DNA of 64,000 nt from Calditrichia bacterium (GCA_028284905.1 JANQQU010000012.1:62001-126000), one strand, 5' to 3'. Shown: positions 1,372-39,570, counted from the first letter of the stretch. Notes: a model not told the origin generated them from the sequence alone. Program-made: numbers and translations.

Positions 1372-1396
1372 AAAGAAATAACCTGACGAGGAATGA

Positions 1397-2485
1397 ATGA
1401 GTGCATCAGATCGTTTTCGGATCTCGAAAGTGGATACCTGGCTGGAACACCTTGAACTGACCCGGCCATATACGATTGCTTACAAAACTGTTACGGCGGT
1501 AGAAAACGTTTTTATCCGGGTAGAAACTGCCGATGGCGCCTGGGGCATTGGCGCTGGTTCGCCGGCAGCTTATGTGACCGGCGAAGACACTGATGCCTGC
1601 TTTGCCGCGCTTTCTGCCAATGCCGAAAGCTTGCTGCTGGGTAAAGATGTCCGCGCATTGCCACAACTGATTCGGGATATGGAAGCAAAAATGCCCGCCA
1701 CGCCCGCTGCCCGCACCGCTATCGATATTGCCCTGCACGATCTGTTGGCGAAACAACTTGGTGTGCCGCTGGTAAAGCTGCTCGGCGAAGCGCATACTGC
1801 ATTGCCAACCTCTATTACCATCGGGATTAAATCCCTGGAAGAAACCCTGGAAGAAGCGGAAGAATATCTTGGCCGCGGATTTAAAATTCTAAAGTTGAAA
1901 ATTGGTAAATCCCTCGAACAAGATATCGAAACGACCCGGAAACTCAACGAAAAAGTACGCGGCCAGATGTTGATTCGGGTAGATGCCAACCAGGGATACT
2001 CAACGGATGACCTAGTAACTTATGCCCGTTCAACAGAGGGATTGGGGCTGGATTTAATCGAGCAGCCAGTCGCTAAGGAAGCCTGGGAAAAAATGCGGGA
2101 AGTGCCCGCAGATGTCCGGAAAATTTGTGCCGGGGACGAAAGTATGCAGCTACCGGCGGATGCCCTGGCGATGGCCGCAGCGCCGCAGCCGTTTGGCATT
2201 TATAACATCAAGCTAATGAAATGCGGTGGCATTAATGCTTCGATGCGTATTGGTAACATTGCCCAGTTGGCCGGCATCGATTTAATGTGGGGATGCATGG
2301 ACGAGAGCATCGTCAGTATTACCGGTGCCCTCCATGCCGCCCTGGCGAATCCCGCCACGCGCTATCTCGATCTTGATGGTAGCCTGGACCTTGCCCGGGA
2401 TCTGGTAAAAGGCGGTTTCGTTCTGAAAGACGGATACCTCAGTGTTTCTGACAAACCGGGACTCGGTGTTACATTGATAACGTAG
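1397..2485 (+). CDS. enolase-superfamily dipeptide epimerase (L-Ala-D/L-Glu epimerase or N-acyl-Glu racemase type)
   Basis: Muconate-lactonizing subgroup enzyme of 362 residues. Visible motifs are the KxK base (K166-L-K168 in ILKLKIGK), metal ligands D196 (RVDANQG), E222 (LIEQPV) and D247 (CAGDES), and the second Lys region NIKLMKCGG near 272. The family epimerises L-Ala-D-Glu and related dipeptides. A second, diverged copy lies at 7455-8480. This one is followed after 66 bp by a DUF1611 gene; in the reported DgcN/DgcA route a DUF1611 protein N-acetylates D-Glu and an enolase-superfamily partner racemises the product. Either Ala-Glu epimerase or N-acetyl-Glu racemase is therefore possible. 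GAGGA precedes ATG 1397. Family certain, substrate open. Confidence 0.85.
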   Translation: MSASDRFRISKVDTWLEHLELTRPYTIAYKTVTAVENVFIRVETADGAWGIGAGSPAAYVTGEDTDACFAALSANAESLLLGKDVRALPQLIRDMEAKMPATPAARTAIDIALHDLLAKQLGVPLVKLLGEAHTALPTSITIGIKSLEETLEEAEEYLGRGFKILKLKIGKSLEQDIETTRKLNEKVRGQMLIRVDANQGYSTDDLVTYARSTEGLGLDLIEQPVAKEAWEKMREVPADVRKICAGDESMQLPADALAMAAAPQPFGIYNIKLMKCGGINASMRIGNIAQLAGIDLMWGCMDESIVSITGALHAALANPATRYLDLDGSLDLARDLVKGGFVLKDGYLSVSDKPGLGVTLIT

Positions 2486-2551
2486 TGAAGATTATGAAAT
2501 TCTTCCTGAAACAAATTCAATAAAAATAATTTTTTAGGATAAGAGGATGCA

Positions 2552-3631
2552 ATGAAGAGTGGAACGGCAATAGTGCTGACAAACGGATGGCTGGCACATA
2601 TTGAAGCGAAGACTTGCCATGGTTTGCTGCGAGGCTCAGAACGGTTTTCGGTTGTGGCGGTAGTAGACAAAAATCATCCCGGGGAGGATGCTTGTAAAGT
2701 GAGTAATGTTTCTAATCGTGAAGCGGTGCCGGTTTATGCGGATATCGCGGAAGCGCTGGAGAAATTGCCGGAACGCCCGGATTATTGCATCGTTGGCGTC
2801 GCTGTGCACGGTGGATATCTGCCGGATGAAATACGTCAGGACCTCCTCTTCGCGGCGAAACAGGGAATTTCGCCGGTAAATGGTTTGCATAGTTTTTTAA
2901 GTAACGATCCGGAATTCCTGGCACTGGCAGAAGAAAAAAATCTGGAAATTATCGATGTACGGAAGCCGCGCACGTTTGAAGAATTGCGTTTCTGGAGCGG
3001 CGACATTTATTCCGTAAAAGCACCGCGAATTGCCGTGCTGGGCACCGATTGTGCAATCGGCAAACGGACCACCTGCAGCTATTTGCTGGATCTCTGTCAG
3101 CAAAATGATATTCAGGCCGAGATGATCTATACCGGGCAAACCGGTTGGATGCAAGGATACAAATATGGCTTTATCTTTGATTCTACTTTAAACGATTTTA
3201 TCAGCGGGGAAATTGAACGGGAGATAGTGAAGTGCGACCGGGAAGCATCACCGGAAGTAATTCTGATCGAAGGCCAGTCTTCCCTGCGTAATCCCAGCGG
3301 GCCCTGCGGTTCGGAGTTCATTATTTCCGGCCATGCCCGGGGTGTCATTCTTCATCATGCCCCTAGCCGCAAATATTATGATGGGGCGGAATACCCTCCT
3401 GGCCTCATGCCGCCGGTCGAAACAGAAGTGGCCTTAATACGAGCGCTTGGTGCGGAAACGCTTGCGATTACGTTGAATGAAAGCGGTATGTCCGAGGCGG
3501 AAATTACCAGCTATCAAAATGACTTACGGGAGAAGTTGGGTATTCCGGTGGTTCGTCCCTTAAAAGATGGCTTGTCCGCGTTATTGCCGGTTATTCAATC
3601 CTATATTCGCGAAAATCGGGAGGCCAGCTAA
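2552..3631 (+). CDS. DUF1611 P-loop protein, DgcN-like (possible D-glutamate N-acetyltransferase)
   Basis: 359-residue DUF1611 protein. An N-terminal Rossmann-like half (about 1-150, with VVGVAVHGG) precedes a P-loop half with a Walker A-like GTDCAIGKRTT (164-174), then IEGQSSLRNP and ILHHAPSRKYYDG blocks typical of the family. DUF1611 genes very often neighbour dipeptide epimerases. Members called DgcN have been reported as D-glutamate N-acetyltransferases. Here that activity would feed D-Glu from muropeptides to the adjacent racemase. The Walker motif suggests nucleotide or acyl-CoA phosphate binding. An AGAGGA precedes ATG 2552. The stop overlaps the next start as TAATG, indicating translational coupling. 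Family confident; reaction is inference. Confidence 0.8.
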   Translation: MKSGTAIVLTNGWLAHIEAKTCHGLLRGSERFSVVAVVDKNHPGEDACKVSNVSNREAVPVYADIAEALEKLPERPDYCIVGVAVHGGYLPDEIRQDLLFAAKQGISPVNGLHSFLSNDPEFLALAEEKNLEIIDVRKPRTFEELRFWSGDIYSVKAPRIAVLGTDCAIGKRTTCSYLLDLCQQNDIQAEMIYTGQTGWMQGYKYGFIFDSTLNDFISGEIEREIVKCDREASPEVILIEGQSSLRNPSGPCGSEFIISGHARGVILHHAPSRKYYDGAEYPPGLMPPVETEVALIRALGAETLAITLNESGMSEAEITSYQNDLREKLGIPVVRPLKDGLSALLPVIQSYIRENREAS

Positions 3632-5145
3632 TGAGGATGCGATTGAGGAATTATTCTGGTGTAAATTTTCTACTTCGATTTCTGCTGATCGGTGCGACGT
3701 TCTGGTTTTTCGGCGCTTGCTCTTCGACAAAACCCAATCTTCAGGCAATTAGTCAATCTCCGCTGGAAACATTAAAAACAGAAATCGATAAAGTACTCGC
3801 AGATTCCGTGATGCGCCAAACCCAGGCAGGCATCAAAATCGTCTCTCTGAAAAACGGGGAAGTATTGTACGAACGGGACGCGCAAAAGCTTTTTCATCCG
3901 GCCTCGAATATGAAGCTGTTAACCACCGCAACAGCGCTATCCCGGCTAGGCAGCAATTTTCGATACCAGACCACACTGCATGCCGATTCCGCTGCCATTC
4001 AGGACAGCGTGCTGCAGGGCGATCTTTACCTGAAAGGCACCGGGAATCCTGATTTACTGAACGATGATTTACGCTCAATGGTGCGCCAACTTCAGGGACT
4101 GGGTGTAAAATCGGTTAGCGGTAATCTGATATGCGATGACAGCTATATGGATGATCTTTTTTGGGGGCGCGGCTGGATGTGGGATGATGCATCCGCCTGG
4201 TATTGGGCGCCAATCTATGCCTTGTCTGTAGAAGATAACTGTGTGACCATTACGGTGAAGCCCGGCGAGAATATCGGAGATCCATTAAAAGTGGAAATTG
4301 AGCCGAAGACCGCCTACATGCGTATTGAAAATAACGGCCGTACTGTTGCTGCGGATGATTCGCTGGCGCTGGACGATTTCTCTGTTCAGCGGGAATGGAA
4401 AGATCCGGCAAATGTCGTCGTGATCAAAGGGGGCCGGACCACTGATATGGGCCCGCGTAGCTATGTGATCGATGTTTTGGATGGCGCCCTTTATACCGGT
4501 ACAGTTTTCAGTGAGCGACTGATTGAAGCCGGCATTGAATTTAGCGGAGAAGTAAAGCGTGGTATTCTCCCGGAAAATAGCGAACAATTGGCAGCTCACA
4601 CATCCGCATCTCTCGCTGATGTCATCGATAATACCAATAAAATCAGCGATAACCTATCCGCAGAAATACTCCTGAAAACGGTCGGGGCAGAGATGCGTGG
4701 AACACCTGGCAGCGCGGCGAAAGGAATTTCAGAAATTTACCGTTTCCTTGATGAAGCTGGCGTCGATAGCAACAGTTATTATCTGGCCGATGGTTCCGGG
4801 GTATCCCGCTATAATGTAGTTCATGCAGATCTCCTGATCGCGTTGCTGGAACAGATGCACCGGGATTTTCGGGTGCAGGCGGAATTTAAGGCTTCTCTGC
4901 CAATCGCAGGCGTGGACGGCACGCTTTCTTCCCGAATGAAAGGGGGAAGTGCAATGGATAATCTTCGGGCGAAAACCGGTTCTCTGCGCGGCGTTAGTTC
5001 TCTTGCCGGCTATACGATTACTGCTGATGGGGAGCAACTCGCTTTCGCAATCCTGATGGCAAATTTTGTTGGCTCCGCCCGGCATATTCGTAAAGTGCAG
5101 GATCGCATCGGCCATCTGATCTCGGATTTCCGGCGCACGCCCTGA
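3631..5145 (+). CDS. dacB: PBP4-type D-alanyl-D-alanine carboxypeptidase/endopeptidase, lipoprotein
   Basis: Serine peptidase family S13 (504 aa), which trims or cuts peptidoglycan cross-links outside the cytoplasmic membrane. All three active-site motifs are present: SxxK (S92-K95 in HPASNMK), SxN (S339-D-N341) and KTG (448-450 in RAKTGSL). The long insertion between the first two motifs is typical of PBP4. The N-terminus has a hydrophobic stretch (about 13-28) ending FFGAC-SS, so C30 is a likely lipidation site. ATG 3631 overlaps the preceding stop. In this operon it would generate the muropeptides that the cytoplasmic enzymes degrade. Confidence 0.92.
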   Translation: MRMRLRNYSGVNFLLRFLLIGATFWFFGACSSTKPNLQAISQSPLETLKTEIDKVLADSVMRQTQAGIKIVSLKNGEVLYERDAQKLFHPASNMKLLTTATALSRLGSNFRYQTTLHADSAAIQDSVLQGDLYLKGTGNPDLLNDDLRSMVRQLQGLGVKSVSGNLICDDSYMDDLFWGRGWMWDDASAWYWAPIYALSVEDNCVTITVKPGENIGDPLKVEIEPKTAYMRIENNGRTVAADDSLALDDFSVQREWKDPANVVVIKGGRTTDMGPRSYVIDVLDGALYTGTVFSERLIEAGIEFSGEVKRGILPENSEQLAAHTSASLADVIDNTNKISDNLSAEILLKTVGAEMRGTPGSAAKGISEIYRFLDEAGVDSNSYYLADGSGVSRYNVVHADLLIALLEQMHRDFRVQAEFKASLPIAGVDGTLSSRMKGGSAMDNLRAKTGSLRGVSSLAGYTITADGEQLAFAILMANFVGSARHIRKVQDRIGHLISDFRRTP

Positions 5146-5164
5146 TTGGTTTGTGGTTAGTATT

Positions 5165-5251
5165 GTCATTGCGAGGCGCTTTTTGCCGAAGCAATCTCAA
5201 ACGTGCATGCAATATAGAGATCGCTTCGTCGCTGCACTTCTCGCGATGACA
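5165..5251. repeat. 87-bp palindromic intergenic element, copy 1
   Basis: Begins GTCATTGCGAGGCGC and ends TTCTCGCGATGACA, with GCAATCTC and GAGATCGCTTCG inside, so the two ends are inverted copies. Two more copies lie at 10691 and 30047. It fills most of the dacB-lysA gap and causes an artificial in-frame N-terminal extension of lysA. Confidence 0.85.
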
Positions 5252-5326
5252 GCTAAGACAACTTTCAGCATTACATGTTTAACACTATCGAAAAAATTTA
5301 TCACACTAAAGAAAATTGGAAGCAGC

Positions 5327-6481
5327 ATGTTCACAAAGCATCATATAGAAAAGTTCAGTCAACTGGAAACGCCATTTTATTACTACGACCTTTCCCTGTT
5401 GGACGAAACGCTGGATCGCCTGCGAAAAGCGTCCGGGCAATATGGCTACCGGGTGCATTATGCCATGAAAGCGAATGTTAACAAGCCGATCCTGAAACGA
5501 ATTTGCGCACAGGGATTTGGCGCGGATTGTGTTAGTGGTAACGAGATTCTGCGTGCCCTGGAGATCGGCTTTCCGACAGAGGATATTGTTTTTGCCGGGG
5601 TGGGGAAGAGTGATAAAGAAATGCAAATCGGGCTGGACAATGATATCTTTTGTTTTAACTGCGAGTCCGTTCAGGAATTGGCTGTATTAAATCAACTGGC
5701 CGGCGCTGCCGGGAAAACCGCCCGGGTAGCGCTGCGTATCAATCCCAATCTGGATGCAAAAACCCACCATCACATCACTACCGGCCTGGAAGAGAATAAA
5801 TTCGGTATTCCCCTGGAAAAACTCGATGAAGCAATCGCAGCGGTGCATCGCTGTGAACATCTTAATTTTATTGGACTGCACTTTCATATTGGCTCCCAGG
5901 TGACCGACATGCCAGTGTTTGAGAAACTGTGTATTCGGGCCAATGAAATTCAAGAATCGTTGGTAAAAAATGGTTTGCACCCGGAACACATCAACCTCGG
6001 CGGTGGATTGAGCGTGAATTATCAGGACCCAAATGGTCACAAGATTGCTGACTTCGATACCTATTTCGGCATTGTTAATCGCTACCTGACGCCATTACCG
6101 GGGCAAACTGTTCATTTCGAGTTGGGGCGTTCGCTGGTAGCGCAATGCGGTAGCTTAATTAGCCGGGTACTATTTGTGAAAGAAGGTTTGAAAACCCGTT
6201 TTGCCGTGCTGGATGCCGGGATGACCGAGTTGATTCGTCCGGCACTGTATAGCGCCACTCATCATATTGAAAATCTCAGCGGCAATGGGAAAATGTTGCC
6301 CTACGATGTCGTTGGTCCGATCTGTGAATCGTCAGATTGCTTTGGAAAAAACGTCAGTTTGGCTACTGTGGAGCGGGGAAATATTATTGCAATTCGCACC
6401 GCCGGTGCTTATGGCGAGATTATGGCCTCCCGTTATAATTTGCGGGATTACGCCCCTGCGGTTTATTCGGAGGAAGCATAA
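5327..6481 (+). CDS. lysA: diaminopimelate decarboxylase (fold-type III PLP enzyme)
   Basis: Decarboxylates meso-diaminopimelate to L-lysine. The 384-residue protein has the PLP lysine in HYAMKAN (K48), the phosphate-binding GGGLSVNY, ELGRS, the DAGMTELIRPALY block, CESSD with the substrate-side Cys, and GAYG near the end, all LysA hallmarks. An in-frame open frame continues upstream to 5153, but that part is translated repeat DNA, so ATG 5327 is chosen. The stop overlaps the following ATG (TAATG). Placement in a recycling operon suggests it consumes DAP freed from muropeptides, though ordinary lysine synthesis is equally compatible. Confidence 0.9.
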   Translation: MFTKHHIEKFSQLETPFYYYDLSLLDETLDRLRKASGQYGYRVHYAMKANVNKPILKRICAQGFGADCVSGNEILRALEIGFPTEDIVFAGVGKSDKEMQIGLDNDIFCFNCESVQELAVLNQLAGAAGKTARVALRINPNLDAKTHHHITTGLEENKFGIPLEKLDEAIAAVHRCEHLNFIGLHFHIGSQVTDMPVFEKLCIRANEIQESLVKNGLHPEHINLGGGLSVNYQDPNGHKIADFDTYFGIVNRYLTPLPGQTVHFELGRSLVAQCGSLISRVLFVKEGLKTRFAVLDAGMTELIRPALYSATHHIENLSGNGKMLPYDVVGPICESSDCFGKNVSLATVERGNIIAIRTAGAYGEIMASRYNLRDYAPAVYSEEA

Positions 6482-7344
6482 TGGGCGCAGGAATAATGAA
6501 ATGGGACTGGGCCCATAAGGATGCTATCGCTTATGGTATTGTAGCGATCAGTGTGGCAAATATGCGGCAGTTGCCGGTGTTTCCATCCGAACTGGTGGAT
6601 CAGGTGTTGTTGGGAACCGTCGTCCCGGTGTTTGAAGAACAGAATGGATTTTATTACATGCTTAACCGGGATGGCCATTGGGGCTGGTTGAGCAAGCCAT
6701 CTTTGCAAATTACCGATGCTACCGGCGCCAGCGCCTGGGAAGCGGATGAACGGGCCATTTGTGTGGCCAATTATGGCGTCATTCGCAGCGCCCCGCGGGA
6801 TGCTGCTCCGGCAATCAGCGACCTGGTCGCCTGTGCAGTGTTGAAAAATGTCACGGCGAATGGGCAATATTGCCAGGTTGAATTGCCGGATGGTCGACGC
6901 GGGTTTCTGGAAAAATCACTCATTCGGAACGAAAGTACCCTGGGGCAGAGCACTATCACTGCTGAAGCGATTTACAGAATAACAGGGCAATTTCTTGGCA
7001 TACCCTATTTGTGGGGAGGCACTTCTTCCAAAGGGTTCGACTGTTCCGGCTTCGTGCAGACAGTTTTTCGTCTGCTCAATTTGGACCTGCCCCGCAACTC
7101 CCGGCAAATGGCGGAAGTCGGTGAAACAATCTCTTTTGACAATAACCTTGCTGGCTTAAAAACCGGGGATCTGCTGTTCTTTGGCAACACACTGCGCCGA
7201 ATTACACACGTGGCGATTTATCTTGGAGACGGTCAATTTATTCACGCCGACGGTACTGTGCACATTGATAGTCTGCAGCCGGGGGCGGAAGGGTATAATG
7301 AGTATCGCCACCAGACTTTGTTGAAAGCACAGCGGATTTTTTAA
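6481..7344 (+). CDS. YkfC-like gamma-D-glutamyl-L-diamino acid endopeptidase (SH3b + NlpC/P60)
   Basis: 287 residues: two SH3b-like segments (about 20-75 and 90-150) and a C-terminal NlpC/P60 domain (160-287) with catalytic Cys188 (GFDCSGF), His243 (THVAIYLG) and His255 (FIHADG). There is no signal peptide, so it should act in the cytoplasm like Bacillus YkfC, cutting gamma-D-Glu-DAP bonds of imported murein peptides. It is coupled to lysA by TAATG and carries a CGGAGGAA site. The next gene is a YkfB-like epimerase, which repeats the ykfB-ykfC pairing. Specificity is inferred from architecture and context. Confidence 0.87.
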   Translation: MGAGIMKWDWAHKDAIAYGIVAISVANMRQLPVFPSELVDQVLLGTVVPVFEEQNGFYYMLNRDGHWGWLSKPSLQITDATGASAWEADERAICVANYGVIRSAPRDAAPAISDLVACAVLKNVTANGQYCQVELPDGRRGFLEKSLIRNESTLGQSTITAEAIYRITGQFLGIPYLWGGTSSKGFDCSGFVQTVFRLLNLDLPRNSRQMAEVGETISFDNNLAGLKTGDLLFFGNTLRRITHVAIYLGDGQFIHADGTVHIDSLQPGAEGYNEYRHQTLLKAQRIF

Positions 7345-7421
7345 ATGGGTAAATGGGCAAATATACAAATGGGCAAATAGGCAGATTTGCTCATCTGCTC
7401 ATTTGCTCATCTGCTCATTTA
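7345..7421. repeat. iterated word array AAATGGGCAAAT / GAGCAGATGAGC
   Basis: Starts right after the preceding stop codon. The first half iterates AAATGGGCAAAT, the second half iterates TTTGCTCATCTGCTCA in the opposite sense, so the block can fold on itself. Related words occur at 18995-19032 and 57730-57795. Confidence 0.7.
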
Positions 7422-7454
7422 TATCCTACTCACCTAAAACCTAAAGCCTGAATC

Positions 7455-8480
7455 ATGAATCATACTGAAATCAGTTACGAAGTCCGGCGGCTGGAATTGA
7501 AGCATAGCTGGAATCTTTCCCGGGGATCCTGGGATTTCAAGGAAAATGTAATCGTCCGTTTGACTCGCGACGGCATTAGTGGCTGGGGTGAAGCGGCACC
7601 GAATTCCCGCTATGATGAAACGCCGGAAAGCACGGTTGCTGTTATGGAAAAGGCAGCTGAGGTATTGGCCGATTTTCATCCTGCCGAATATGTGCGGTTT
7701 GGGGAAGCCATTCAACAGCTGGGAGACGGGCAGACCGCTGCTAAAGCGGCGCTGGATATGGCTTTGATGGATTGGGTGGGGAAATCTTTTAAGTCGCCAC
7801 TGCATCGCTTCTGGGGCTTGTCCGCAGCGGAAACACCGATAACTACGTTAACCATTGGCATCGATACCCCGGAAGTGATCCGGGAAAAAGTAAATGAGGC
7901 GAAAGATTTTCCGATATTGAAGATCAAGCTGGGCAGTCAGGACGACCGGGAGATCATTGCGGCAGTGCGCGCTGTTACAGATAAACCGCTTTGCGTTGAT
8001 GCAAATGAAGGCTGGAAAGACCGGGAAACTGCGCTGCGCAATATCGAGTGGCTGGCGGGGGAAAATGTTGTCTTCGTAGAACAACCGATGCCGGCGGCAA
8101 TGCTCGATGATATTGCCTGGGTGCGCCAACGGGCCAGTTTGCCTTTGATTGCTGATGAAAGTGTGAAGCAGGGGAGTGAGATTCCCCAATTGGCGGCAGC
8201 CTTCGATGGCATTAACATCAAGGTGATGAAGGCGGGAGGACTGCAGGAAGCACTACGGATGATTTGGATGGCTAAGACACTGGGTTTGAAGGTAATGCTC
8301 GGTTGTATGGTAGAAACTTCCCTGGGGATTTCTGCCGCGGCGGCGCTTTCTCCACTGGTGGATTATGCCGACCTCGACGGACATCTCCTGATCAAAAATG
8401 ATCCCTATCGGGGGATTGCGATTGATGCGGGTAAAATTGTTTTGAATGATATGTTTGGGGTTGGGGTGGTCGAACGTTGA
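7455..8480 (+). CDS. L-Ala-D/L-Glu dipeptide epimerase (YkfB-like)
   Basis: 341-residue enolase-superfamily enzyme. It shows the KxK base (LKIKLGSQ), ligands in CVDANEGW, FVEQPMP and IADESV, the second Lys in NIKVMKAGG, and the GCMVETSLG loop seen in dipeptide epimerases. It would epimerise L-Ala-D-Glu released by the upstream NlpC/P60 peptidase so that normal dipeptidases can use it. It is clearly diverged from the paralogue at 1397-2485, so the two probably have different substrates. It ends the + strand operon; a bidirectional terminator follows at 8688. Confidence 0.9.
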   Translation: MNHTEISYEVRRLELKHSWNLSRGSWDFKENVIVRLTRDGISGWGEAAPNSRYDETPESTVAVMEKAAEVLADFHPAEYVRFGEAIQQLGDGQTAAKAALDMALMDWVGKSFKSPLHRFWGLSAAETPITTLTIGIDTPEVIREKVNEAKDFPILKIKLGSQDDREIIAAVRAVTDKPLCVDANEGWKDRETALRNIEWLAGENVVFVEQPMPAAMLDDIAWVRQRASLPLIADESVKQGSEIPQLAAAFDGINIKVMKAGGLQEALRMIWMAKTLGLKVMLGCMVETSLGISAAAALSPLVDYADLDGHLLIKNDPYRGIAIDAGKIVLNDMFGVGVVER

Positions 8481-11868: not shown

Positions 11869-11961
11869 AATGTCTGGCCGCTTTAGTTGTTTTTAAACCG
11901 TTTTTTCCTGGCAGGTATCGGAAGCATCCATACCTGCCTCAAATTAGGATTAAGCTGCGAT

Positions 11962-15528: not shown

Positions 15529-15591
15529 AATTTTTCCGTTATGCTTTTTATTTACCGGTTTTGTTTCAACTGCTTTTCACTGCGAGCCAAT

Positions 15592-18453: not shown

Positions 18454-18511
18454 TGGGCCTGCCTCGCATCGTGCGGTAGTTACATGAGAATTTTTGAATT
18501 GGATTCTGGAG

Positions 18512-18540
18512 AAAATACAAGTTCTGATAATTTTTGTCAA
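18512..18540 (-). promoter_or_regulatory. sigma-70-type promoter of the TonB receptor gene
   Basis: Read on the - strand: TTGACA, a 17-bp spacer and TATTTT. This is near consensus and places transcription start about 50 bp before ATG 18453. It argues for classical housekeeping promoters in this organism. Confidence 0.6.
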
Positions 18541-30235: not shown

Positions 30236-33200
30236 TTATCGAATCAACATCATCTTTTTGGTTGAGCGAAAATCGCCGGCATTGAGGCGATAAAAATAGA
30301 TACCGCTGGCAACGGCTTTGCCCTGATCGTCCCGGCCATTCCAGTTCAGTTTATGTTGTCCGGCAGCCATCCGGCCGTTTACTAAGGTGCGCACTTTTTG
30401 GCCAAGGGCATTGTAAACAATCAGATTGACCTTCCCCTGGTAATTGGCTGGCACATCAAAGCGGATTTGCGTTTCCGGATTGAAAGGATTGGGGTAGTTC
30501 TGTGCCAGGGCGAATGCTTCCGGCAAACTTCCGTTGCTATCACCAATGCCAACCGGCAGGCCGAAATAGTTGAGTACTTTTTCCATCAGACGGGAGCGCT
30601 GATACGGGTTGACAATTGTTTCGTAAGTAAAACCGAGATAAATCAATTGCGCGGTCTCGTTACTGCTGTTATACGTACCGGTGTATTCCACTCCGGCAAT
30701 ACGCAAATTATCATAAATCAATGCTGAATTGCTGCCGCCGTTTGTTTGCAGATAATCGGGAAAATCTTCAATGTAAAGGTTCGGTCCGTTGGTGGTGCCA
30801 TAGACGAAATCCAGGCCGCTAAAGCTGGTGCCACCAAGGCCAATGACCCGATTCGAACCGGCAAGATCGCCAAAATATCTGGCCTTTAGAAGATTCTCGT
30901 AACGCTGTAATTCTACCGCCGTTGTGGAAGCAAAATCGTAGCCGATCTCCGAGCCGGAGATAAACAACTTACCGCCACCTTCCTGATAAGCCATTAAGCG
31001 ATGCTGGTCGGCTGCTGCCAGGGATTCATCAGAGCGACTGTCATCTCCACAAAAATACATTACCACTTCGTAGTCGGAGAGGAGAATATCGCCATTCTGC
31101 ACGGCGGTTTCGGTGCAGGAAGAGAAGCCATGTCCCCGTTGGTCAATCGCTTCGCCATAGCTGGCGACAAACGGATGCTGCGGGGCGCTCCAGGAAGCGC
31201 GCCGGTCGAAATTGTCGACAACAAGAATGCTGCGGTCGCTGGCAATGCCCACGCCGTAAGCATCACTGGGGGAGCTTAATAAGGGGATTTCGCTGCCGAA
31301 TTCATCAATGACTTTATTTGTATCAACGGCAACAATGCGAAAATAAGCGGATGTACCATTGCCCGGGAATAAAAGGGTATAACTACTGGCATTGCCATCA
31401 ATGACATTTTCATCGGCAATCGGAGTCTCGCCCCAGCTTAATCCGTCGCTGCTGCTGAAAAGACGGTAGCCGGCAATGTCCCCTTCCAAATTCGGATACC
31501 AGGCAACTTCCACTTCATTGGCCGCGGCATCGGTCAGGCGAACCGATTTCAGAATCGGCTGCGTCGGTGGATCAAGACGGTCAACTCTTTCCAGGCGGAA
31601 AGCATCGACCATCAGCAGAGTGGGGATATCCGGCAGACCGCTGATTTCGATATAGCCAAGGGAGTCGCCATCAGCATCAAAATGCATCGGCGACGGACTC
31701 ACCAATGCCCACTGATTGAAATTCACGCTGTTATATTCCAGAAATAATGGATGTGCGCGGCCATGTTCATCAACAAAACGATAACGGGCGCTATTGCCTA
31801 AATAATTTGTGCCGGAGGCGAGAAAAACATCATAGTCACCCGGCTCCACCACTGCGGGAAAGATGCGTACCCGATGGGAGCCGTCGGTGTCTTCCGCCAG
31901 CAGCCGCTGTCCGCTGGTGAGCCCGGGAAGATTAACATCGCTATTGTCGACGGTCCAGTTGCCTTCCACGCTGAAGGTGCCATTTCGAATACTGGACAGC
32001 GATTGAATTTCTACATTAAGCGCCGCTATTTCGATCTGGAACTGATAGGTGTATTCCATCACATTCGGAGGCGTAGCAAGGTCCGATGCGATAACATCGA
32101 CAATCACATTTTGCGACTGGGGGAAGGGATTGGGCGGATCATAGAAAACCTGGTATAAAGATGGTGAACCGCTGATGATCGGGGTGACCACCTGGCCGTT
32201 AATGCGCATTACGATGGTGCTCTCGTCAATGCCTTCTTCCGCATCTTCAATCAACACGCCAACTGGCGTCTCCGGGGAAATACCGGTGCTGTATGGCTGT
32301 GGAAATGGAAGAGCGATATATGGCGCACCGAAACCCAGCTGACGACGGATGCCGGCACGCATATCGGGAATTTCCGGGTAGAGATTATTGCCCGGGCAGG
32401 CCGTTGAGTTGTAATCCCGGTGACCAAAGAGAGAATCGGGGGTAATGCTGTAATTAAAAGCGAGCCAGCTCCACATCGATATTAAGCTTTCCAGCGCTTC
32501 CGGGGTGGGATTTTCCCCGGAGATATCGAGATTGCCCATGTAAGAGATACCGACGTTGCCAGTGTTGTTGCCACCAACGTGGGTGCCGCGAAAATCTTGA
32601 GGAACACCTTCATAGAGGCGTCCGGCATCATCGACTAAAAAGTGATAACCGATATCCTGCCAGCCCCGGCCGTTCTGATGAAAGTCCTGGATGAACTGCA
32701 TCTCGGAAATCCCCTGCGACAGTGATGACACCCGGGAACCGGCGGTATGGTGCTGAGTAAGGCGAAAAGGGCTGTGTGGAATATATTGACCGACCGGCGG
32801 ATTGGCGCCCCACTGCTGGCGAGTGATTAAAGCTGGCTTGGGAATCGTATCTACTTCGATAAATGAAGTTGGGGCAATCGGGGGCAGTGTCTCTTCAATA
32901 GGATGAGCATCTTTCTCATCGAGTCCTTCTACGGCAAAAATTTGTACTTGCAAAGGCAGATTCGCACCTTTTTCAAGCAGGCGGTATTGAATAGAATGGG
33001 TATGGGCGCCGATCATATCCAGGCGTGCCCAAAAGCGACCAGTCGGGAACACCCGCAGGAAAGCATCCTGCCAATCGGACCAACTTGCATCGCTTAATTG
33101 ATAACGAATTTGCAGGTTCAGGTTTTCGTCCCCAAGGATACCATTGATTAGCACCCGGTTAAAGGCCACCGTGCTTGCTTCACTAATTGCCGACCGATAA

Positions 33201-33346
33201 ATTTCCCCGCTATTCTCGGTCGCTTGATCAATGGTAATATCCAGGTTGATAGCACCGTTAAAACGGAGCATTTCCCCGCTTTCGTGGGCAAATAATAATG
33301 ATGTCAGGAATAATAATAGTCCTGTGAAATAAGTACGAATCCGCAT
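30236..33346 (-). CDS. T9SS-exported PGRP/amidase_2 N-acetylmuramoyl-L-alanine amidase
   Basis: 1036 residues; signal peptide 1-20. The PGRP zinc amidase domain (about 172-340) has the expected ligands: His in QHHTAG (199), His309 (FGHRDY) and Cys317 (ACPG), plus Tyr234 in IGYHFLV, so it should be active on the bond between MurNAc and L-Ala. A Golvesin/Xly-like beta domain (about 450-590), an FN3 domain (600-700) and a glutamine-amidotransferase-like segment with a DYEVVMYFCGDDS strand follow. The C-terminus is QNYPNPFNPETQIRF ... KKMMLIR. Export through T9SS would put it outside the cell, suggesting attack on other cells' walls. Confidence 0.9.
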   Translation of the reverse strand: MRIRTYFTGLLLFLTSLLFAHESGEMLRFNGAINLDITIDQATENSGEIYRSAISEASTVAFNRVLINGILGDENLNLQIRYQLSDASWSDWQDAFLRVFPTGRFWARLDMIGAHTHSIQYRLLEKGANLPLQVQIFAVEGLDEKDAHPIEETLPPIAPTSFIEVDTIPKPALITRQQWGANPPVGQYIPHSPFRLTQHHTAGSRVSSLSQGISEMQFIQDFHQNGRGWQDIGYHFLVDDAGRLYEGVPQDFRGTHVGGNNTGNVGISYMGNLDISGENPTPEALESLISMWSWLAFNYSITPDSLFGHRDYNSTACPGNNLYPEIPDMRAGIRRQLGFGAPYIALPFPQPYSTGISPETPVGVLIEDAEEGIDESTIVMRINGQVVTPIISGSPSLYQVFYDPPNPFPQSQNVIVDVIASDLATPPNVMEYTYQFQIEIAALNVEIQSLSSIRNGTFSVEGNWTVDNSDVNLPGLTSGQRLLAEDTDGSHRVRIFPAVVEPGDYDVFLASGTNYLGNSARYRFVDEHGRAHPLFLEYNSVNFNQWALVSPSPMHFDADGDSLGYIEISGLPDIPTLLMVDAFRLERVDRLDPPTQPILKSVRLTDAAANEVEVAWYPNLEGDIAGYRLFSSSDGLSWGETPIADENVIDGNASSYTLLFPGNGTSAYFRIVAVDTNKVIDEFGSEIPLLSSPSDAYGVGIASDRSILVVDNFDRRASWSAPQHPFVASYGEAIDQRGHGFSSCTETAVQNGDILLSDYEVVMYFCGDDSRSDESLAAADQHRLMAYQEGGGKLFISGSEIGYDFASTTAVELQRYENLLKARYFGDLAGSNRVIGLGGTSFSGLDFVYGTTNGPNLYIEDFPDYLQTNGGSNSALIYDNLRIAGVEYTGTYNSSNETAQLIYLGFTYETIVNPYQRSRLMEKVLNYFGLPVGIGDSNGSLPEAFALAQNYPNPFNPETQIRFDVPANYQGKVNLIVYNALGQKVRTLVNGRMAAGQHKLNWNGRDDQGKAVASGIYFYRLNAGDFRSTKKMMLIR

Positions 33347-33521
33347 GTTTCCAAATCCTCGCAGTTATAAAATAGGTCTCCAGAGTCTTCTGTTGCTATA
33401 TACCGAATATGGCCGGAAAACCCTGCGGATATCAAGTATCAACGAACCGGAAAGTTGTATTATTTTTTCCTGGGGAGTGATGTCGCGGTTTTGAATATTG
33501 CTTTCATTGATACAGCTTAAG

Positions 33522-33609
33522 TTAGCCACGGATAGCACGGATTTCACTGATAAAGACTAACAACATGCGTATTTAGTATTTATCAGTGAAATCCGTGCTA
33601 TCTGTGGCG
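33522..33609. repeat. inverted CCACGGAT word pair
   Basis: TTAGCCACGGATAGCACGGA...TCACTGATAAA at 33522-33554 returns inverted as TATCAGTGAAATCCGTGCTA...TGGC at 33581-33608. The stem is nearly perfect and about 28 bp long. Same word family as at 28781, 29061 and 30190. Confidence 0.85.
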
Positions 33610-33628
33610 AAAATTTACTGTAATGAAG

Positions 33629-34879
33629 TTATTTCTCACTAATAAACTTTTGTAAGTCTGGACTAAATGCCCGCTTTCGCTGTCGCTCGTAATCATAAAC
33701 AGCCTGGCCCAATTTGGCGAAAAAGGGATAGCCAAGCGTTTTATATTCGTAAGTATCGTCGTTGTAGATTTGATTATCATTGACCTGAATGACGGCGCTT
33801 AGAAAAAACTCAATCTTGTTTTCGACGTCGACGATATAAGCATTGTCGATCAGGTAGCCATAGGCATTACCCACCTTATTGAAGATGCGAATATTATTCG
33901 GCAGCGGCGCTTTTGAATCGCCAAACATGAAGAATTTGACGTAACTATCGTAGTAGCGGGCACTGTCCGGATAAGATGGGTAATCGCTCTCCCGGGGGAG
34001 CATACTCATGTATTTGTAAAGGAATTGATAATCTTCATCGCTGAGATCAAACCGCTGTTCCGCTGGTGTGCCTTCCGGCAGGATGACTGCGCGGAGAATG
34101 CCCTGCAGACTTTCCAGGGAGATATAGTTGGAATTGCTAAAATCGATCGGTTCATTGACCAGCTTACCGCCACGCATATAGCCGATGCCTTGTTTTACAT
34201 CAGCCATTTCTACTTTATAGTGATTGGGATTTTCTACCAGCGGTTGCTCGTAAAAAATGTTCTCCCCGCCGTAAAAGAGGAAAGGATTGGTAAAGCGCTG
34301 ATCGTCCGGCGTACCGCGGGATTCCAGGCGGCGAACCATTTGCGCATCCTTGTAGCCCTTCTCCCAGAGCGCTTCATTGAAATACTGCTGACCGAGAAAT
34401 TCGTAGAGGCGATTATACGCGTCGTTGTCGCTCACCAGGAAAATTTTCTTGATGTAATGGCCGATACTCGGTTTGCCGTCCTGCGATGAAGGATCATCAA
34501 GAACCGCCGATTGAGATGCACGGGCGCTGTCGATCTGCAAATATGTATGGATGTTCACATTTTCCATGCCAAGCCGATTCAGCTTTTCCATGGCGAGAAT
34601 CGCCGCCGGAAGCTTCACCGTACTGGCGGGGTAAAAATAGTGGGTTTTATTCAGGCCAAAGCCGTAAGCGGTAAATGTCGGCTGATTATTTTCATCCCGA
34701 TCGATCTGCGTGTAGAGAATCTGCACCCGATGCTTCCCGGCGTTATTCATAATTTTTTGCACTGCTGCTGGAGAGTTTTTCAGAATTTGATGTAGCGGGT
34801 TATTCATATCGTAATTCGGCCCATTGTCGCTACAGCTCATAAGCAATCCTATCATGATCAGACAAATGTATTTAAGCAT
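33629..34879 (-). CDS. class A beta-lactamase-like serine hydrolase lipoprotein
   Basis: 416 residues from ATG 34879, which has AGGAG just upstream; the longer open frame adds 34 residues without leader character. The leader ends LLMSC, so C16 is the likely lipidation site. The serine-hydrolase motifs are S86-T-V-K89 (YPASTVKLP), an SDN (FLVSDNDAYNRL) and a KTG-position KVG (IFNKVGNAYG). The fold is that of class A beta-lactamases and related DD-peptidase-like enzymes. KVG in place of KTG and the long insertions make true beta-lactamase activity doubtful. It follows DUF3124 and phosphatase genes on the same strand. Confidence 0.85.
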   Translation of the reverse strand: MLKYICLIMIGLLMSCSDNGPNYDMNNPLHQILKNSPAAVQKIMNNAGKHRVQILYTQIDRDENNQPTFTAYGFGLNKTHYFYPASTVKLPAAILAMEKLNRLGMENVNIHTYLQIDSARASQSAVLDDPSSQDGKPSIGHYIKKIFLVSDNDAYNRLYEFLGQQYFNEALWEKGYKDAQMVRRLESRGTPDDQRFTNPFLFYGGENIFYEQPLVENPNHYKVEMADVKQGIGYMRGGKLVNEPIDFSNSNYISLESLQGILRAVILPEGTPAEQRFDLSDEDYQFLYKYMSMLPRESDYPSYPDSARYYDSYVKFFMFGDSKAPLPNNIRIFNKVGNAYGYLIDNAYIVDVENKIEFFLSAVIQVNDNQIYNDDTYEYKTLGYPFFAKLGQAVYDYERQRKRAFSPDLQKFISEK

Positions 34880-34913
34880 CGGAAACTCCTTTATGATCAG
34901 CAATCGTTTGAAA

Positions 34914-35399
34914 TTAGTCCGTCGGTTTGATAACACGACCTTGAGATGTAAAGGAAATACCCTGTTGAGATTGGGTGCCAATCATAATACTTTCGATCAC
35001 CGGTGGGTTTACGTACTTGTCCGTATTCCATTCAACAATAAAGTTCGCCCCGGATCCACCACTTTTATCTCTCTCGGGAATGACATAGCGAATGGACTCC
35101 AGCGGTTTCAGCACAGCCGGTTCGTTCAAATATTCTTTTAAGAGTTTGCCTTGAGATTCATAATATTTTACGGAAGTTACTTTAATCTCATGCTTCGGAT
35201 CTATATTTCGAATGCTTAATGTTATGGTTAACAGATATGGGCTTTCGCGATCACCGATATAGATGTGTGAATAGGCAGGCACATAAACCATCTGCCCGTT
35301 TGACAGGCCATCTTTATCCTCAGCTTGCACGTTGATTGGGGAGAAAGAATAAATTGCAAGGATTAACAGCGTTAAAGTAATCGACAGCTTTTTTATCAT
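34914..35399 (-). CDS. DUF3124 periplasmic protein
   Basis: 161 residues with a signal peptide (about 1-26, cut after VQA). The DUF3124 blocks are clear: VYVPAYSHIYIGD, LLTITLSIRNID, KVTSVKYYESQGKLLKEYL, DKSGGSGANFIVEW and MIGTQSQQGISFTSQG. The family has no assigned function. GGAG precedes ATG 35399. It lies 35 bp before a beta-lactamase-like lipoprotein and 114 bp after a tyrosine-phosphatase gene. Confidence 0.88.
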   Translation of the reverse strand: MIKKLSITLTLLILAIYSFSPINVQAEDKDGLSNGQMVYVPAYSHIYIGDRESPYLLTITLSIRNIDPKHEIKVTSVKYYESQGKLLKEYLNEPAVLKPLESIRYVIPERDKSGGSGANFIVEWNTDKYVNPPVIESIMIGTQSQQGISFTSQGRVIKPTD

Positions 35400-35513
35400 T
35401 AATATCTCCGCATTTTAATCTTTGGTATAACGACATATATACTGGCAGGAAAACCAGGGTGAGACGATGGTTTGATTTCCGCTGAACATGACGATATGCC
35501 GTAATCAAGCTGT

Positions 35514-35981
35514 TTAGTACAAGCTATCCGCGAGTTCAAAATATTTACTATCCAACGCCTCAAATGTCTCTGGCCGGATGTATTTGATGATATTGAGAGC
35601 ATCATCATGTGTTGCGCCACCTTTTCGCATAACGGCGTAAGCAAACATCCCGGTGCGATGTAACCCGGCAGAGCAATGGACCAACACTGATTCATTGTCT
35701 AAAATACAGTTGTATATTTTATGAACCGATCGTTTAAAGAACATTTTTTCTGCAGACGAAAGCTCAGTCGCATGTGCTACTTTCAGCCATTCCCATGAGA
35801 TGCCATGGGCTTCAACAGCTTCCCCAATTTTGTGAGCTTGTTCTCCACGTTCAGCCAATATCGTTACAACCCGGTCACAGCCTGCCGGAACAAGTTCTTT
35901 TACTTCCTTCAGCTTTGGCCTTTCGGATAGCGCCAATTTTCCGGAACCAAACAACTCTACAAAATTAAAACTTAATGCCAT
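35514..35981 (-). CDS. dual-specificity/tyrosine protein phosphatase
   Basis: 155 residues, no leader, so cytoplasmic. The CX5R signature is VHCSAGLHRTG (about 108-118), with Cys nucleophile and Arg phosphate-binding residue. A family-typical upstream Asp is not obvious. Such small DSP-like enzymes remove phosphate from proteins, phosphoinositides or nucleotides. It heads a short - strand group with DUF3124 and the serine hydrolase. Substrate unknown. Confidence 0.85.
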   Translation of the reverse strand: MALSFNFVELFGSGKLALSERPKLKEVKELVPAGCDRVVTILAERGEQAHKIGEAVEAHGISWEWLKVAHATELSSAEKMFFKRSVHKIYNCILDNESVLVHCSAGLHRTGMFAYAVMRKGGATHDDALNIIKYIRPETFEALDSKYFELADSLY

Positions 35982-36043
35982 TTACAATTTCTCTTTACCG
36001 CATATCTTACCTATCGCCTAACAGCCTACCGTCTACCGCCTAT

Positions 36044-38332
36044 CTACTTCACCATCAACAACTTACGAGTTTGCTGAAAAGTCTGCCCACCCTCTCCGGT
36101 TTTCGCCTGAAAGCGTGCGAGATAGATGCCGCTGGGTAGACTGCTGCCATTATCACTGCGCCCATCCCAAGTAATGGTATGAATGCCCGCTGGCAGATTA
36201 TTGGAAACCAAACTACGCACCCGCTGCCCCAATGAATTGTAAATAACCAGTGATGCCTCAGCTGCTTTTGGCAAATGAAATTCCAACGTCGTACTTGGGT
36301 TAAAGGGATTGGGATAGTTCGGCTGAAAGGCAAATTGTCTCGGGAGTCCATCGATTAACTCACCATCCGGGTCGATAGCGACAATATCGAAGAAGAAATC
36401 CAACACGCCTTCCATGACGCTGAAACGGGCGGACTCGCTGGCAATCGTTTCGAATGGGAAGGCGAAATAGATGAGTTTACCCGGTGTGCTCCCGGCGCCA
36501 AAAGTACCGCCATATTGAATAGCTGCGGTTGCTCCACCATCGTATTGCAGAATAGTCTCCGCCCCGCCAAAGGAAGTAATGACATCAGCATCCTGCACAA
36601 AATAGGGGATTTGCCCGAAATTGAAATTAAGGCCCTGCAGAATACTGCCATCAACGCCGCTAACGCTAACAGTGCCGGCGCTGCTGTCTGCAAAGGCGGC
36701 TTTCAGATAATCGTTCAGAAATTGTCCGTCTTCAACGCTGGCGTTGCTGCTGCTGGCCGGATCAAGATCCCAGGCAACTTTGCTGCCGCTCAGGAACAGG
36801 TAGCCGCCACTTTCCAGGTAAGCCCGGACCAGCGCCTGTTCCTCACTGCTAAAAGTTTCATCTGCTGCTTCCTCATCACCGAGTATCCAGAATACTGCAT
36901 CATAATCAGCAAGGCTAACGCTGCTGTCGAGAATTGCCTCGTTGGGGGCGGTATCAAAGCTGATATCATGCGCGATAATTGCCTGCCCGTGGGTAACTGC
37001 GAAATCGTGCCAGTCATCCGTCCAACTGCCAGTAGTGCGATCGAAGCCATCGACGATGAGCACTTTATGCAAGAAGTTGCCGTTGCTCATCCCATAACTA
37101 TCGGAAGCGGGACTTTCGTTTGCCAGCGGAGAATTATCTACCGCAGTAAGGCGGAAATAGACATCCCTGTTGAGTATTCCTGATATGAGGGTGTCGGAGA
37201 CATTTGCCGTCAGATAATTTTCATCCCGAAAAAGATCCCATTGTTCATTATCAAAACTGAAATAGAGGCGATAGCCTTCCAGATCGTTGTCGGTATTCGC
37301 ATACCAGTCGACGAGCATACCGTTGGATGCTTCCGCCACAAAGCGCATGGTCGGTTGCGCCGGTGGTGTCAGATCGGTCTCGGTTACATTCACTGCGGTA
37401 TACATTGTATCGGCATTTCCGCGGGTATCCTCGGCAAAGGTCATTACCACATAAGGGCCGAGGGGCAAAGTGGTAGTATTCCAGGAATTGTTACTGCTGA
37501 TGTTATTGGTCACCTGGTAGACATGGCTGGTCGTAGTAGACTGTGGCCTAAAATAGGCGATGTTAACGTAGCTGTTACTTGGTTTAGTATCAAATTGAAA
37601 ACGCACGCCATTATTGGATGGCTCATATACTATCGTGCTGGTATCCGCACTCAGAATTTTATAGCCGATTTTATAAATGCCATTGTTCCGGATGGAGGTT
37701 GAAGTCCAGGACGGACCACTCTGCTCATCAACTTTCACGATAATATCCACGAGGCCATTTACATTGTTGTTGGAGAAAAAATTAAGGGTATTATCCTGGT
37801 AAAAATGGGTATAGCGAATAATCGGCGCCCAGGTATCTTCATAGGGAGTCAATCCACTATTTGACAGCAAGCTAACCTTTTCCGCTCCACTATAACCATT
37901 GGTGAAATGAACATGCCCTAATCCCGGAAGGATAGTGCCGAGTACCGTTTGAGACGCAATTACCGGCGAGCCGACGGAAAGGGAAGGATTCGGGAGGATA
38001 TGCACATAAGCAATATCGTTGACGCGAACATATGCATTGGAGCCCACGGAGGACAGGGCAGTGACATTTCCATTCTTGACTGGATACACCGCAGAACCAT
38101 CCGCTTTGGGGATATCTGTGCCGTTGTGAAAATGACCATTCACACTAGTGCTACGATATTCCGCAAAAGTACCGGTGATATATTGGCTATTGTTGAAGGG
38201 CGTTACCGGCCAGGGAAACTGCGTTTGGGCCTGCAGCGCGGAGCAGCCGAGCAATAGTAATATCAACGACATGCTTTTCATTAGCCGAGTTAATTGAATT
38301 GAGTCGGAAATTGTATTAAAAAATCTATGCAT
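36044..38332 (-). CDS. T9SS-exported M23 (LytM-like) peptidase with FN3 domain
   Basis: 762 residues. The leader core lies at about 20-35 (LILLLLGCSALQAQ). The M23 zinc-peptidase residues are complete: H69 and D73 in HNGTD, H111 in YVHIL, and H140/H142 in GHVHF. M23 enzymes cut peptidoglycan cross-bridges or Gly-rich proteins. An FN3 domain (about 325-410), a GATase-like segment with DYDAVFWILGDEEA and the sorting tail QPNYPNPFNPSTTLEF ... RKLLMVK follow. The ATG overlaps the preceding stop as TAATG, which supports this start even though a later Met (38281) would give a shorter leader. Confidence 0.87.
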   Translation of the reverse strand: MHRFFNTISDSIQLTRLMKSMSLILLLLGCSALQAQTQFPWPVTPFNNSQYITGTFAEYRSTSVNGHFHNGTDIPKADGSAVYPVKNGNVTALSSVGSNAYVRVNDIAYVHILPNPSLSVGSPVIASQTVLGTILPGLGHVHFTNGYSGAEKVSLLSNSGLTPYEDTWAPIIRYTHFYQDNTLNFFSNNNVNGLVDIIVKVDEQSGPSWTSTSIRNNGIYKIGYKILSADTSTIVYEPSNNGVRFQFDTKPSNSYVNIAYFRPQSTTTSHVYQVTNNISSNNSWNTTTLPLGPYVVMTFAEDTRGNADTMYTAVNVTETDLTPPAQPTMRFVAEASNGMLVDWYANTDNDLEGYRLYFSFDNEQWDLFRDENYLTANVSDTLISGILNRDVYFRLTAVDNSPLANESPASDSYGMSNGNFLHKVLIVDGFDRTTGSWTDDWHDFAVTHGQAIIAHDISFDTAPNEAILDSSVSLADYDAVFWILGDEEAADETFSSEEQALVRAYLESGGYLFLSGSKVAWDLDPASSSNASVEDGQFLNDYLKAAFADSSAGTVSVSGVDGSILQGLNFNFGQIPYFVQDADVITSFGGAETILQYDGGATAAIQYGGTFGAGSTPGKLIYFAFPFETIASESARFSVMEGVLDFFFDIVAIDPDGELIDGLPRQFAFQPNYPNPFNPSTTLEFHLPKAAEASLVIYNSLGQRVRSLVSNNLPAGIHTITWDGRSDNGSSLPSGIYLARFQAKTGEGGQTFQQTRKLLMVK

Positions 38333-39570
38333 TATTTCACCCGGTAAATTTTGTAGTTATTGGAAAATCCACTCCAGATTGTCTGGGCATCCGGGGCGAT
38401 AAATAATTGTGGTGTGATAAACTGCTCGCCGCGGATCTCGATCGCCTGAATCATATCGCCACTAGTATCGACAACATGCAAAGTGGGATCGCCAAAGATG
38501 AAACGGCCGTTCTTGAAACTATTGTGGGCAATGAGAATAATAGAACGATCCCCGCTATTAGCTAAAGCAACAGCACTGATCATTCCATATCGTTGATTGA
38601 TTGTCTTTTCCCAAAGTTGCTGGCCGCTGGCAAGATCGAATAAAGCACTGCGGGATTTATCCGCAAGCAGGATGTGGGAATCATCTGCTGATACAGCCGC
38701 ATAATCGGCGAGAATATCACTTTTGGCGATAACCTTTCCGGATCGATCAAAAACAACTGTGTTACGGTCAAAGCTGCCTTTATCCTGATGATACGTAAAG
38801 CTGTTCGCAGCAAGGTAATTTCCACTGGCAGCGATCCAGAGTGCATTGGCACTGTATCCGGGCAGCGCGGCCTGCCACAATGCTTTGCCATTTGCATCAA
38901 AGAGAAATATATGCGGTTCACCGGAAGGATTTTCCAGTCCGGCCCCGGCTGGTGAAGCGCCTTTTTTGCCCAAAAGAATCGCGGCATTTTCCCCGGCTTC
39001 GTCCCAGGCAATATGAAATGCCCGCTCGTAGTCATGCGTTAGATTCTCAAACAGTGTCGGTTCTGCAGACAAATTCCCCCGGCGATCATAAAAAGTAACC
39101 AGACCGTTGGAGGCATCTCCAATAATAACCGCACCGTCTTTGCCGGATACGGCAATTAAGGGATGCTGTTCATCAAAAGGGACCCGTTCCGTTAATTCAT
39201 ACTGTTTTTGAAACGCCTGGTTATAAATTGCAATCTGCAAGAGTTTCTCGCCTTTCAGGGAGGCGTCAGTCGATTTTTGATTTACGACGGCAAGAAATTT
39301 CCCATTACGGGAGAAACGCGAATAGAGATAAGTCGAATTTTCCGCTAAAATCAGCGTTTTTTCGTTATTTTGCCAAATTCGTTCGCTGTTTTCGAAGAAA
39401 ATTGCCGGGCTGGCATCGTTTCTGCTTTTTGCAAAAAAGTAAATATTATCAGCGGCAAAAGAGTTGGTTTCAAATAAAGTGTATGTTGGGTTTGTCCTGG
39501 CGTTCTGGGCAAAAAGCGGTATAATATAGAATAGAAACGCCAAAAAAATCTGGAATGAGTGCTTCGTCAT
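38332..39570 (-). CDS. secreted beta-propeller (WD40/PQQ-like) protein
   Basis: 412 residues; signal peptide 1-21 (IPLFAQ). The repeated pattern of four-strand blades (YSRFSRNGKFLAVV, IAVSGKDGAVIIGDASNGLV, AVSADDSHILLADKSRSALFDLASGQQLWEK) indicates a seven- or eight-bladed propeller of quinoprotein/WD40 type, ending IWSGFSNNYKIYRVK. No T9SS domain, so probably periplasmic. AAGGGGA precedes the start and the stop is coupled to the M23 gene, suggesting that the two proteins work together, perhaps as propeller chaperone or cofactor-binding partner. That is inference. Confidence 0.75.
   Translation of the reverse strand: MTKHSFQIFLAFLFYIIPLFAQNARTNPTYTLFETNSFAADNIYFFAKSRNDASPAIFFENSERIWQNNEKTLILAENSTYLYSRFSRNGKFLAVVNQKSTDASLKGEKLLQIAIYNQAFQKQYELTERVPFDEQHPLIAVSGKDGAVIIGDASNGLVTFYDRRGNLSAEPTLFENLTHDYERAFHIAWDEAGENAAILLGKKGASPAGAGLENPSGEPHIFLFDANGKALWQAALPGYSANALWIAASGNYLAANSFTYHQDKGSFDRNTVVFDRSGKVIAKSDILADYAAVSADDSHILLADKSRSALFDLASGQQLWEKTINQRYGMISAVALANSGDRSIILIAHNSFKNGRFIFGDPTLHVVDTSGDMIQAIEIRGEQFITPQLFIAPDAQTIWSGFSNNYKIYRVK

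Follow-up and report, generated by a model that had tools for sequence, protein, structure and literature searches.

Peptidoglycan makes up a large share of bacterial necromass, and its recycling by anaerobic sediment and ocean bacteria is poorly known. Several described systems bear comparison with the genes treated here. M23 peptidases (LytM, ShyA, lysostaphin; PF01551) carry the residues H-xxx-D, H, and HxH in that order; animal PGRPs and other Amidase_2 proteins (PGRP3, T7 lysozyme) have a domain of about 155 residues with an H-H-C zinc site; and Bacteroidota secrete polymer-degrading enzymes through the type IX secretion system (T9SS), which are recognized by a type A sorting domain and follow the PorU/SprA pathway. 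The Marinimicrobia (Fidelibacterota) isolate Fidelibacter multiformis is reported to draw on exogenous muropeptides for its peptidoglycan and as a source of carbon and energy (PMC11652737). The subject here is a pair of genes in 64,000 nucleotides of DNA (called the window, and always meaning that whole stretch) from a Calditrichia bacterium (GCA_028284905.1 JANQQU010000012.1:62001-126000). They encode an M23-like endopeptidase and a PGRP-type amidase, both ending in T9SS tails, with which these little-known bacteria probably break down the walls of other bacteria extracellularly.

The two proteins resemble the known enzymes in their catalytic residues and the Bacteroidota cargo in their tails. 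They differ from the former in that the M23 protein falls below the Pfam cut-off, is fused to a chassis of FN3-like domain, alpha/beta domain, and T9SS tail, and is paired with a beta-propeller gene, while the amidase is bacterial and has a C-terminal half of the same FN3, alpha/beta, and T9SS composition. They differ from the latter in that the substrate would be peptidoglycan. The likeness to Fidelibacter rests on the genomes of relatives, Marinimicrobia that carry a propeller-M23-S13-S66 operon; the window organism belongs to the Calditrichota, and the text of the Fidelibacter paper is silent on secretion and hydrolases (PMC11652737). Each part is of a known kind, but the combination and the propeller partner were found to be undescribed in the open-access literature searched, which yielded no described T9SS set with these enzymes for scavenging peptidoglycan or for predation. 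The window genome (8.55 Mb) belongs to a small phylum; the named relatives of the M23 gene are from Calditrichota, KSB1, and Caldithrix bacteria.

Two wall hydrolases on one chassis

An earlier note on this DNA had pointed out both open reading frames, and their coordinates and minus-strand orientation were confirmed. Their parts are as follows.

36044..38332, minus strand: M23-like endopeptidase (762 residues), with FN3-like domain, alpha/beta (GATase-like) domain, and T9SS type A tail
37793..38227, minus strand: M23 catalytic domain, residues about 36-180, with H69, D73, H111, H140, and H142
36389..37066, minus strand: alpha/beta 'GATase-like' domain of the M23 protein, residues about 423-648, homologous to that of the amidase (predicted structure; no Pfam match)
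36047..36316, minus strand: T9SS type A C-terminal sorting domain of the M23 protein, residues 673-762
30236..33346, minus strand: PGRP-type N-acetylmuramoyl-L-alanine amidase (1036 residues), with FN3-like domain, alpha/beta chassis, and T9SS tail
32387..32761, minus strand: Amidase_2 domain, residues 196-320, with H199, H309, and C317
30563..31231, minus strand: alpha/beta 'GATase-like' domain of the amidase, residues about 706-928
30239..30496, minus strand: T9SS type A C-terminal sorting domain of the amidase, residues 951-1036

The protein encoded at 36044-38332 is a divergent M23 endopeptidase, predicted to cleave peptidoglycan. Pfam gave no M23 match to it at E 0.01, and in the genome search it scored 15.6 bits against Pfam M23, under the cut-off. 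Though the single sequence lies below that cut-off, the H-xxx-D and HxH residues are present and similarity is reached by profile: a profile of 22 homologues matches solved M23 enzymes (9gy1, 1.3e-7; LytM, 7.1e-5; ShyA, 5e-3), and in hhalign its profile aligns with six M23s of the window genome that Pfam does recognize (probability 97.5, E 7.8e-12). The earlier claim of full catalytic sets held for both enzymes. H69, D73, H111, H140, and H142 are each kept in 80 of 80 aligned sequences, namely the window protein and 79 homologues from across the FCB group. The M23 protein occurs as a single orthologue per genome in many FCB phyla, small-genome Marinimicrobia included. An AlphaFold2 model of the whole protein is confident (pLDDT 91); Foldseek with the full model had FN3/Ig-like proteins among the matches listed and did not inform on the M23 domain. 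The leader (38226-38332) contains LLGCSA, a weak lipobox-like motif, whose cysteine is not conserved; the leaders of homologues look like ordinary Sec leaders.

The protein encoded at 30236-33346 is a PGRP-type Amidase_2 protein with an intact zinc site and is predicted to be active. It matches Pfam Amidase_2 with E 6.5e-18 (65.8 bits, cut-off 26), its best matches in PDB are animal PGRPs (at the top PGRP3, 4z8i, E 3.4e-27), and seven orthologues all keep the zinc residues H199, H309, and C317. Its distribution is order-specific. A 228-residue open reading frame in a KSB1 locus (L074:4195-4878), beside NlpC genes, resembles only the N-terminus of the window amidase and is perhaps a decayed amidase.

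Both proteins are putative T9SS type A cargo, judged by the curated tail cut-off and by the presence of machinery genes, and are thereby predicted to be secreted. The two tails that the earlier note had recognized score 35.0 and 31.6 bits with TIGR04183 (cut-off 23), and 26.5 (just below the cut-off of 27) and 28.5 bits with PF18962. A search for SprA and PorU found genes for both in the window genome (591 and 810 bits), along with at least 150 T9SS tails. Two other M23 proteins of the window genome, of 505 and 494 residues and with strong Pfam M23 matches (L008, G000:C19:198060-198368; L010, G000:C6:749-1015), have ends that resemble T9SS tails and may be further exported wall peptidases beyond this pair.

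The similarity of the middle parts, also claimed earlier, proved to be true homology: the C-terminal halves, comprising FN3-like domain, alpha/beta domain, and tail, are about 34% identical over 474 residues. The label 'GATase-like' is used here as the name of a shared domain, whose activity as a GATase was not confirmed; Pfam finds no family match in that region. At a loop that may be equivalent to the Cys nucleophile motif of class I GATases, in a tentative register, the M23 protein reads LGDEE and the amidase FCGDDS.

A beta-propeller partner

The most conserved partner of the M23 gene, overlooked in the earlier note, overlaps its start.

38332..39570, minus strand: exported beta-propeller partner, 412 residues, no T9SS tail

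The stop codon of the propeller gene and the start codon of the M23 gene share the sequence TAATG. The partner is modelled as a WD40-like beta-propeller (predicted structure, pLDDT 92). Of 79 M23 loci searched with an iterated profile, 65 have a propeller gene next to the M23 gene in the same orientation. It lies upstream in 40 of them, which come from Calditrichota, KSB1, Marinimicrobia, Zixibacteria, and other groups, and downstream in 25, mostly Ignavibacteria. One of the remaining 14 loci has the propeller 4.4 kb away, and some are cut by contig ends. Among 40 Calditrichota genomes, the propeller is present in all 26 that have the M23 gene, adjoining it in 25, and in just two of the 14 that do not.

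The pairing bears on how the enzymes leave the cell. The earlier note had argued that enzymes exported by T9SS would not reach their own wall. That argument is oversimplified, since T9SS cargo passes through the periplasm before export and contact with the cell's own wall in transit must be managed. The propeller, exported without a tail, would most likely chaperone or restrain the M23 enzyme during that crossing.

A glycosidase in sister genomes

In sister Calditrichota, the gene after M23 encodes a third protein whose C-terminal half and T9SS tail correspond to those of the pair, a GH18 (E about 2e-33). Four loci have the order propeller, M23, GH18, amidase (L082, L083, L084, L101), in two of which (L084, L101) a Beta-lactamase2 protein precedes the amidase; in L084, the GH18 gene is interrupted by masked bases. 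A fifth (L090) has propeller, M23, and GH18. The nearest solved relatives of the GH18 are B. subtilis YdhD, another GH18, chitinases, and cortex-lytic/YaaH enzymes. Spore cortex-lytic GH18 enzymes (YdhD, YaaH/SleL) are thus among its best PDB matches (3cz8, 4s3j, 4s3k), but it differs from them in having a T9SS tail and no LysM match, and chitinases match as well. The family's two 8 Mb genomes (G000 and G034) have kept the M23 protein and the amidase and not the GH18 on the T9SS chassis.

Links to muropeptide catabolism

The earlier note had tied the hydrolases to a recycling operon at the left end of the window.

454..8480, plus strand: muropeptide-catabolism gene cluster, with MurQ/GKRP-like SIS protein, two MR_MLE epimerases, DUF1611, S13 carboxypeptidase (D-Ala-D-Ala), PLP decarboxylase, and NlpC/P60

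The cluster is real, but a direct link within the window was rejected: 22-30 kb separate it from the hydrolase genes, it lies on the opposite strand, and the two are not co-transcribed. It is in relatives that homologues of the cluster genes adjoin T9SS wall hydrolases, and operons joining hydrolases with S13, S66, NlpC, or epimerase genes were found there and not in the window. Genes for propeller, M23, S13, and S66 are consecutive in four Marinimicrobia loci (L121, L143, L145, and L148, the last labelled just 'FCB group bacterium'), and in two more (L116, L133) one additional gene separates M23 from S13; the S66 genes of L116 and L143 were called from N-terminal sequence. One of these loci (L145) continues with two 'Gate' membrane proteins, an M15 D-Ala-D-Ala dipeptidase, a second S66, and an amino-acid permease, and further on with a beta-lactamase-family protein and a T9SS-tailed M14 peptidase. 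In two Calditrichota loci (L183 and L185, from G020 and G021), genes for NlpC/P60 and an epimerase come after GH18 (Pfam was run on L183). The KSB1 locus L074 has two NlpC/P60 genes and an epimerase gene ahead of propeller and M23, and in L082 and L083 an NlpC gene lies about 6 kb away. Several of these loci are close relatives, and the adjacencies perhaps represent three or four independent events.

A trio of consecutive genes at 10822-18540 (TonB-dependent receptor, a 1188-residue protein, and a PorV-like protein) was considered as a dedicated muropeptide importer, a proposal weakened by the multiple copies of the 1188-residue protein, which has no Pfam match, 14 matches in the window genome, and many in nearly every relative. 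Homologues of the trio lie near the M23 gene in six loci of Marinimicrobia and Calditrichia (L140, L143, L145, L146, L148, L152).

Other genes near the pair

Two genes near the amidase gene recur in relatives.

33629..34981, minus strand: Beta-lactamase2-family serine hydrolase; adjoins the amidase also in L076, L084, and L101
29165..29935, minus strand: YkuD-family L,D-transpeptidase-like protein, its leader resembling that of a lipoprotein; in L073 a homologue lies upstream of M23

Between the M23 and amidase genes (34914-35981) lie genes for a DUF3124 protein and a dual-specificity-phosphatase-like protein. The KSB1 locus L073 holds a different type of amidase at the equivalent place: an Amidase_3 with Ig-like domains and a T9SS tail (L073:5228-7717), with a PD40 protein and then the propeller-M23 pair directly downstream. 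Scans for promoters and terminators gave sites no more numerous than in shuffled sequence.

Probable digestion of foreign walls and its alternatives

It seems rather likely that the M23 protein and the amidase are exoenzymes that dissolve foreign peptidoglycan, from dead or living neighbours or wall debris, for the cell to feed on. Both would travel by the Sec and type IX systems to the cell surface or the medium, where the M23 enzyme would cut cross-links and the amidase would strip stem peptides; in most sister genomes, the GH18 on the same chassis would cut the glycan. The fragments may then be taken up and processed by NlpC/P60 proteins, S13/S66 carboxypeptidases, and L-Ala-D/L-Glu epimerases like those encoded at the left end. 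This explanation is considered the best because a secreted endopeptidase, an amidase, and (in sisters) a glycosidase occur with enzymes that dismantle stem peptides. In its favour are also the invariant catalytic residues, the tails together with SprA and PorU, the several enzyme types on one homologous chassis, and the operons of relatives, and it agrees with what is reported of Fidelibacter.

Several observations weigh against it. The catabolic operon of the window lies at the distance given above. The window genome lacks a GH18 on the T9SS chassis and encodes just a distant relative of 477 residues. With the iterated profile, the propeller is apparently absent from eight Ignavibacteria loci with M23. 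Also, sequence does not prove the extracellular location, nor that peptidoglycan rather than protein is the substrate of so divergent an M23.

Perhaps the enzymes are instead weapons of predation or competition that lyse living neighbours, feeding being a consequence. Both are intact and T9SS-tailed, and there are precedents: T9SS participates in the ixotrophy of Aureispira and has been linked to predation there, it has also been linked to the way Flavobacterium interacts with walls, and degradation of Bacillus cereus walls is ascribed to the Cytophaga-Flavobacterium bacteria (PMC11205867). However, one conserved orthologue extends over many FCB lineages including Marinimicrobia, the operon partners are catabolic rather than toxin or immunity genes, and the outer membrane obstructs access to Gram-negative targets. 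Predation as the primary role is judged unlikely. Since a single M23 orthologue is conserved across FCB phyla and shares operons with D,D-/L,D-carboxypeptidases, scavenging fits at least as well. The earlier note had proposed that other bacteria are lysed for feeding. What stands of that interpretation is a pair of intact peptidoglycan hydrolases with T9SS tails, in a genome that has T9SS genes, and the connection with catabolism of wall fragments; attack on living cells is not established.

Somewhat less likely again is a role in the cell's own envelope, with the M23 enzyme and propeller remodelling its peptidoglycan on the way out or once at the cell surface, for instance to make a gap in the wall for the trans-envelope T9SS machine. 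The passage of T9SS cargo through the periplasm would allow this, a WalK-like histidine kinase gene adjoins, and such a function might well show the pattern seen in T9SS-bearing phyla, where the gene is nearly always single and keeps its partner. But fourteen of the 40 Calditrichota genomes, five of them among the 23 that are near-complete, have no detectable M23 orthologue, the amidase is confined to an order, and operons are shared with catabolic enzymes. Also, the window genome encodes further M23 proteins without tails, among them a relative of this one of tail-less type (L013, hhalign E 8e-8; its last residues lie outside the stretch read). Work on the cell's own wall is covered by these, which makes an own-wall role for the tailed enzyme less likely.

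Least probable, and very doubtful, is that the M23 family has left peptidoglycan to cut extracellular proteins, in which case the amidase would scavenge or bind independently of it. In favour, the M23 domain has diverged and is under the Pfam cut-off, LasA-type M23 enzymes can cut proteins, and Caldithrix-type bacteria degrade proteins, but in relatives the neighbours act on D-amino-acid or muropeptide bonds (S13, S66, M15, NlpC, epimerase), and a GH18 of cortex-lytic type stands beside M23.

A possible peptidoglycan-scavenging module

Digestion of foreign walls as food may extend well beyond the window. Tentatively, and with less confidence than attaches to the two enzymes themselves, one may picture an FCB-wide module for scavenging peptidoglycan, exported by T9SS and consisting of the M23 enzyme and a propeller guard that would keep it from doing harm in the periplasm, joined in Calditrichota by GH18 and PGRP amidase with the same chassis, and feeding a muropeptide-catabolism operon. 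The propeller is a concrete candidate answer to the puzzle of how cells can send a wall hydrolase across their periplasm without damage to themselves, and the conserved two-gene unit of propeller and M23 lends itself to study in cultured species, among them Caldithrix abyssi, in which the pair appears to be present. The analysis also names specific secreted enzymes that could liberate muropeptides. If the proposal is true, uncultured phyla would have in this module a means dedicated to living on bacterial walls.

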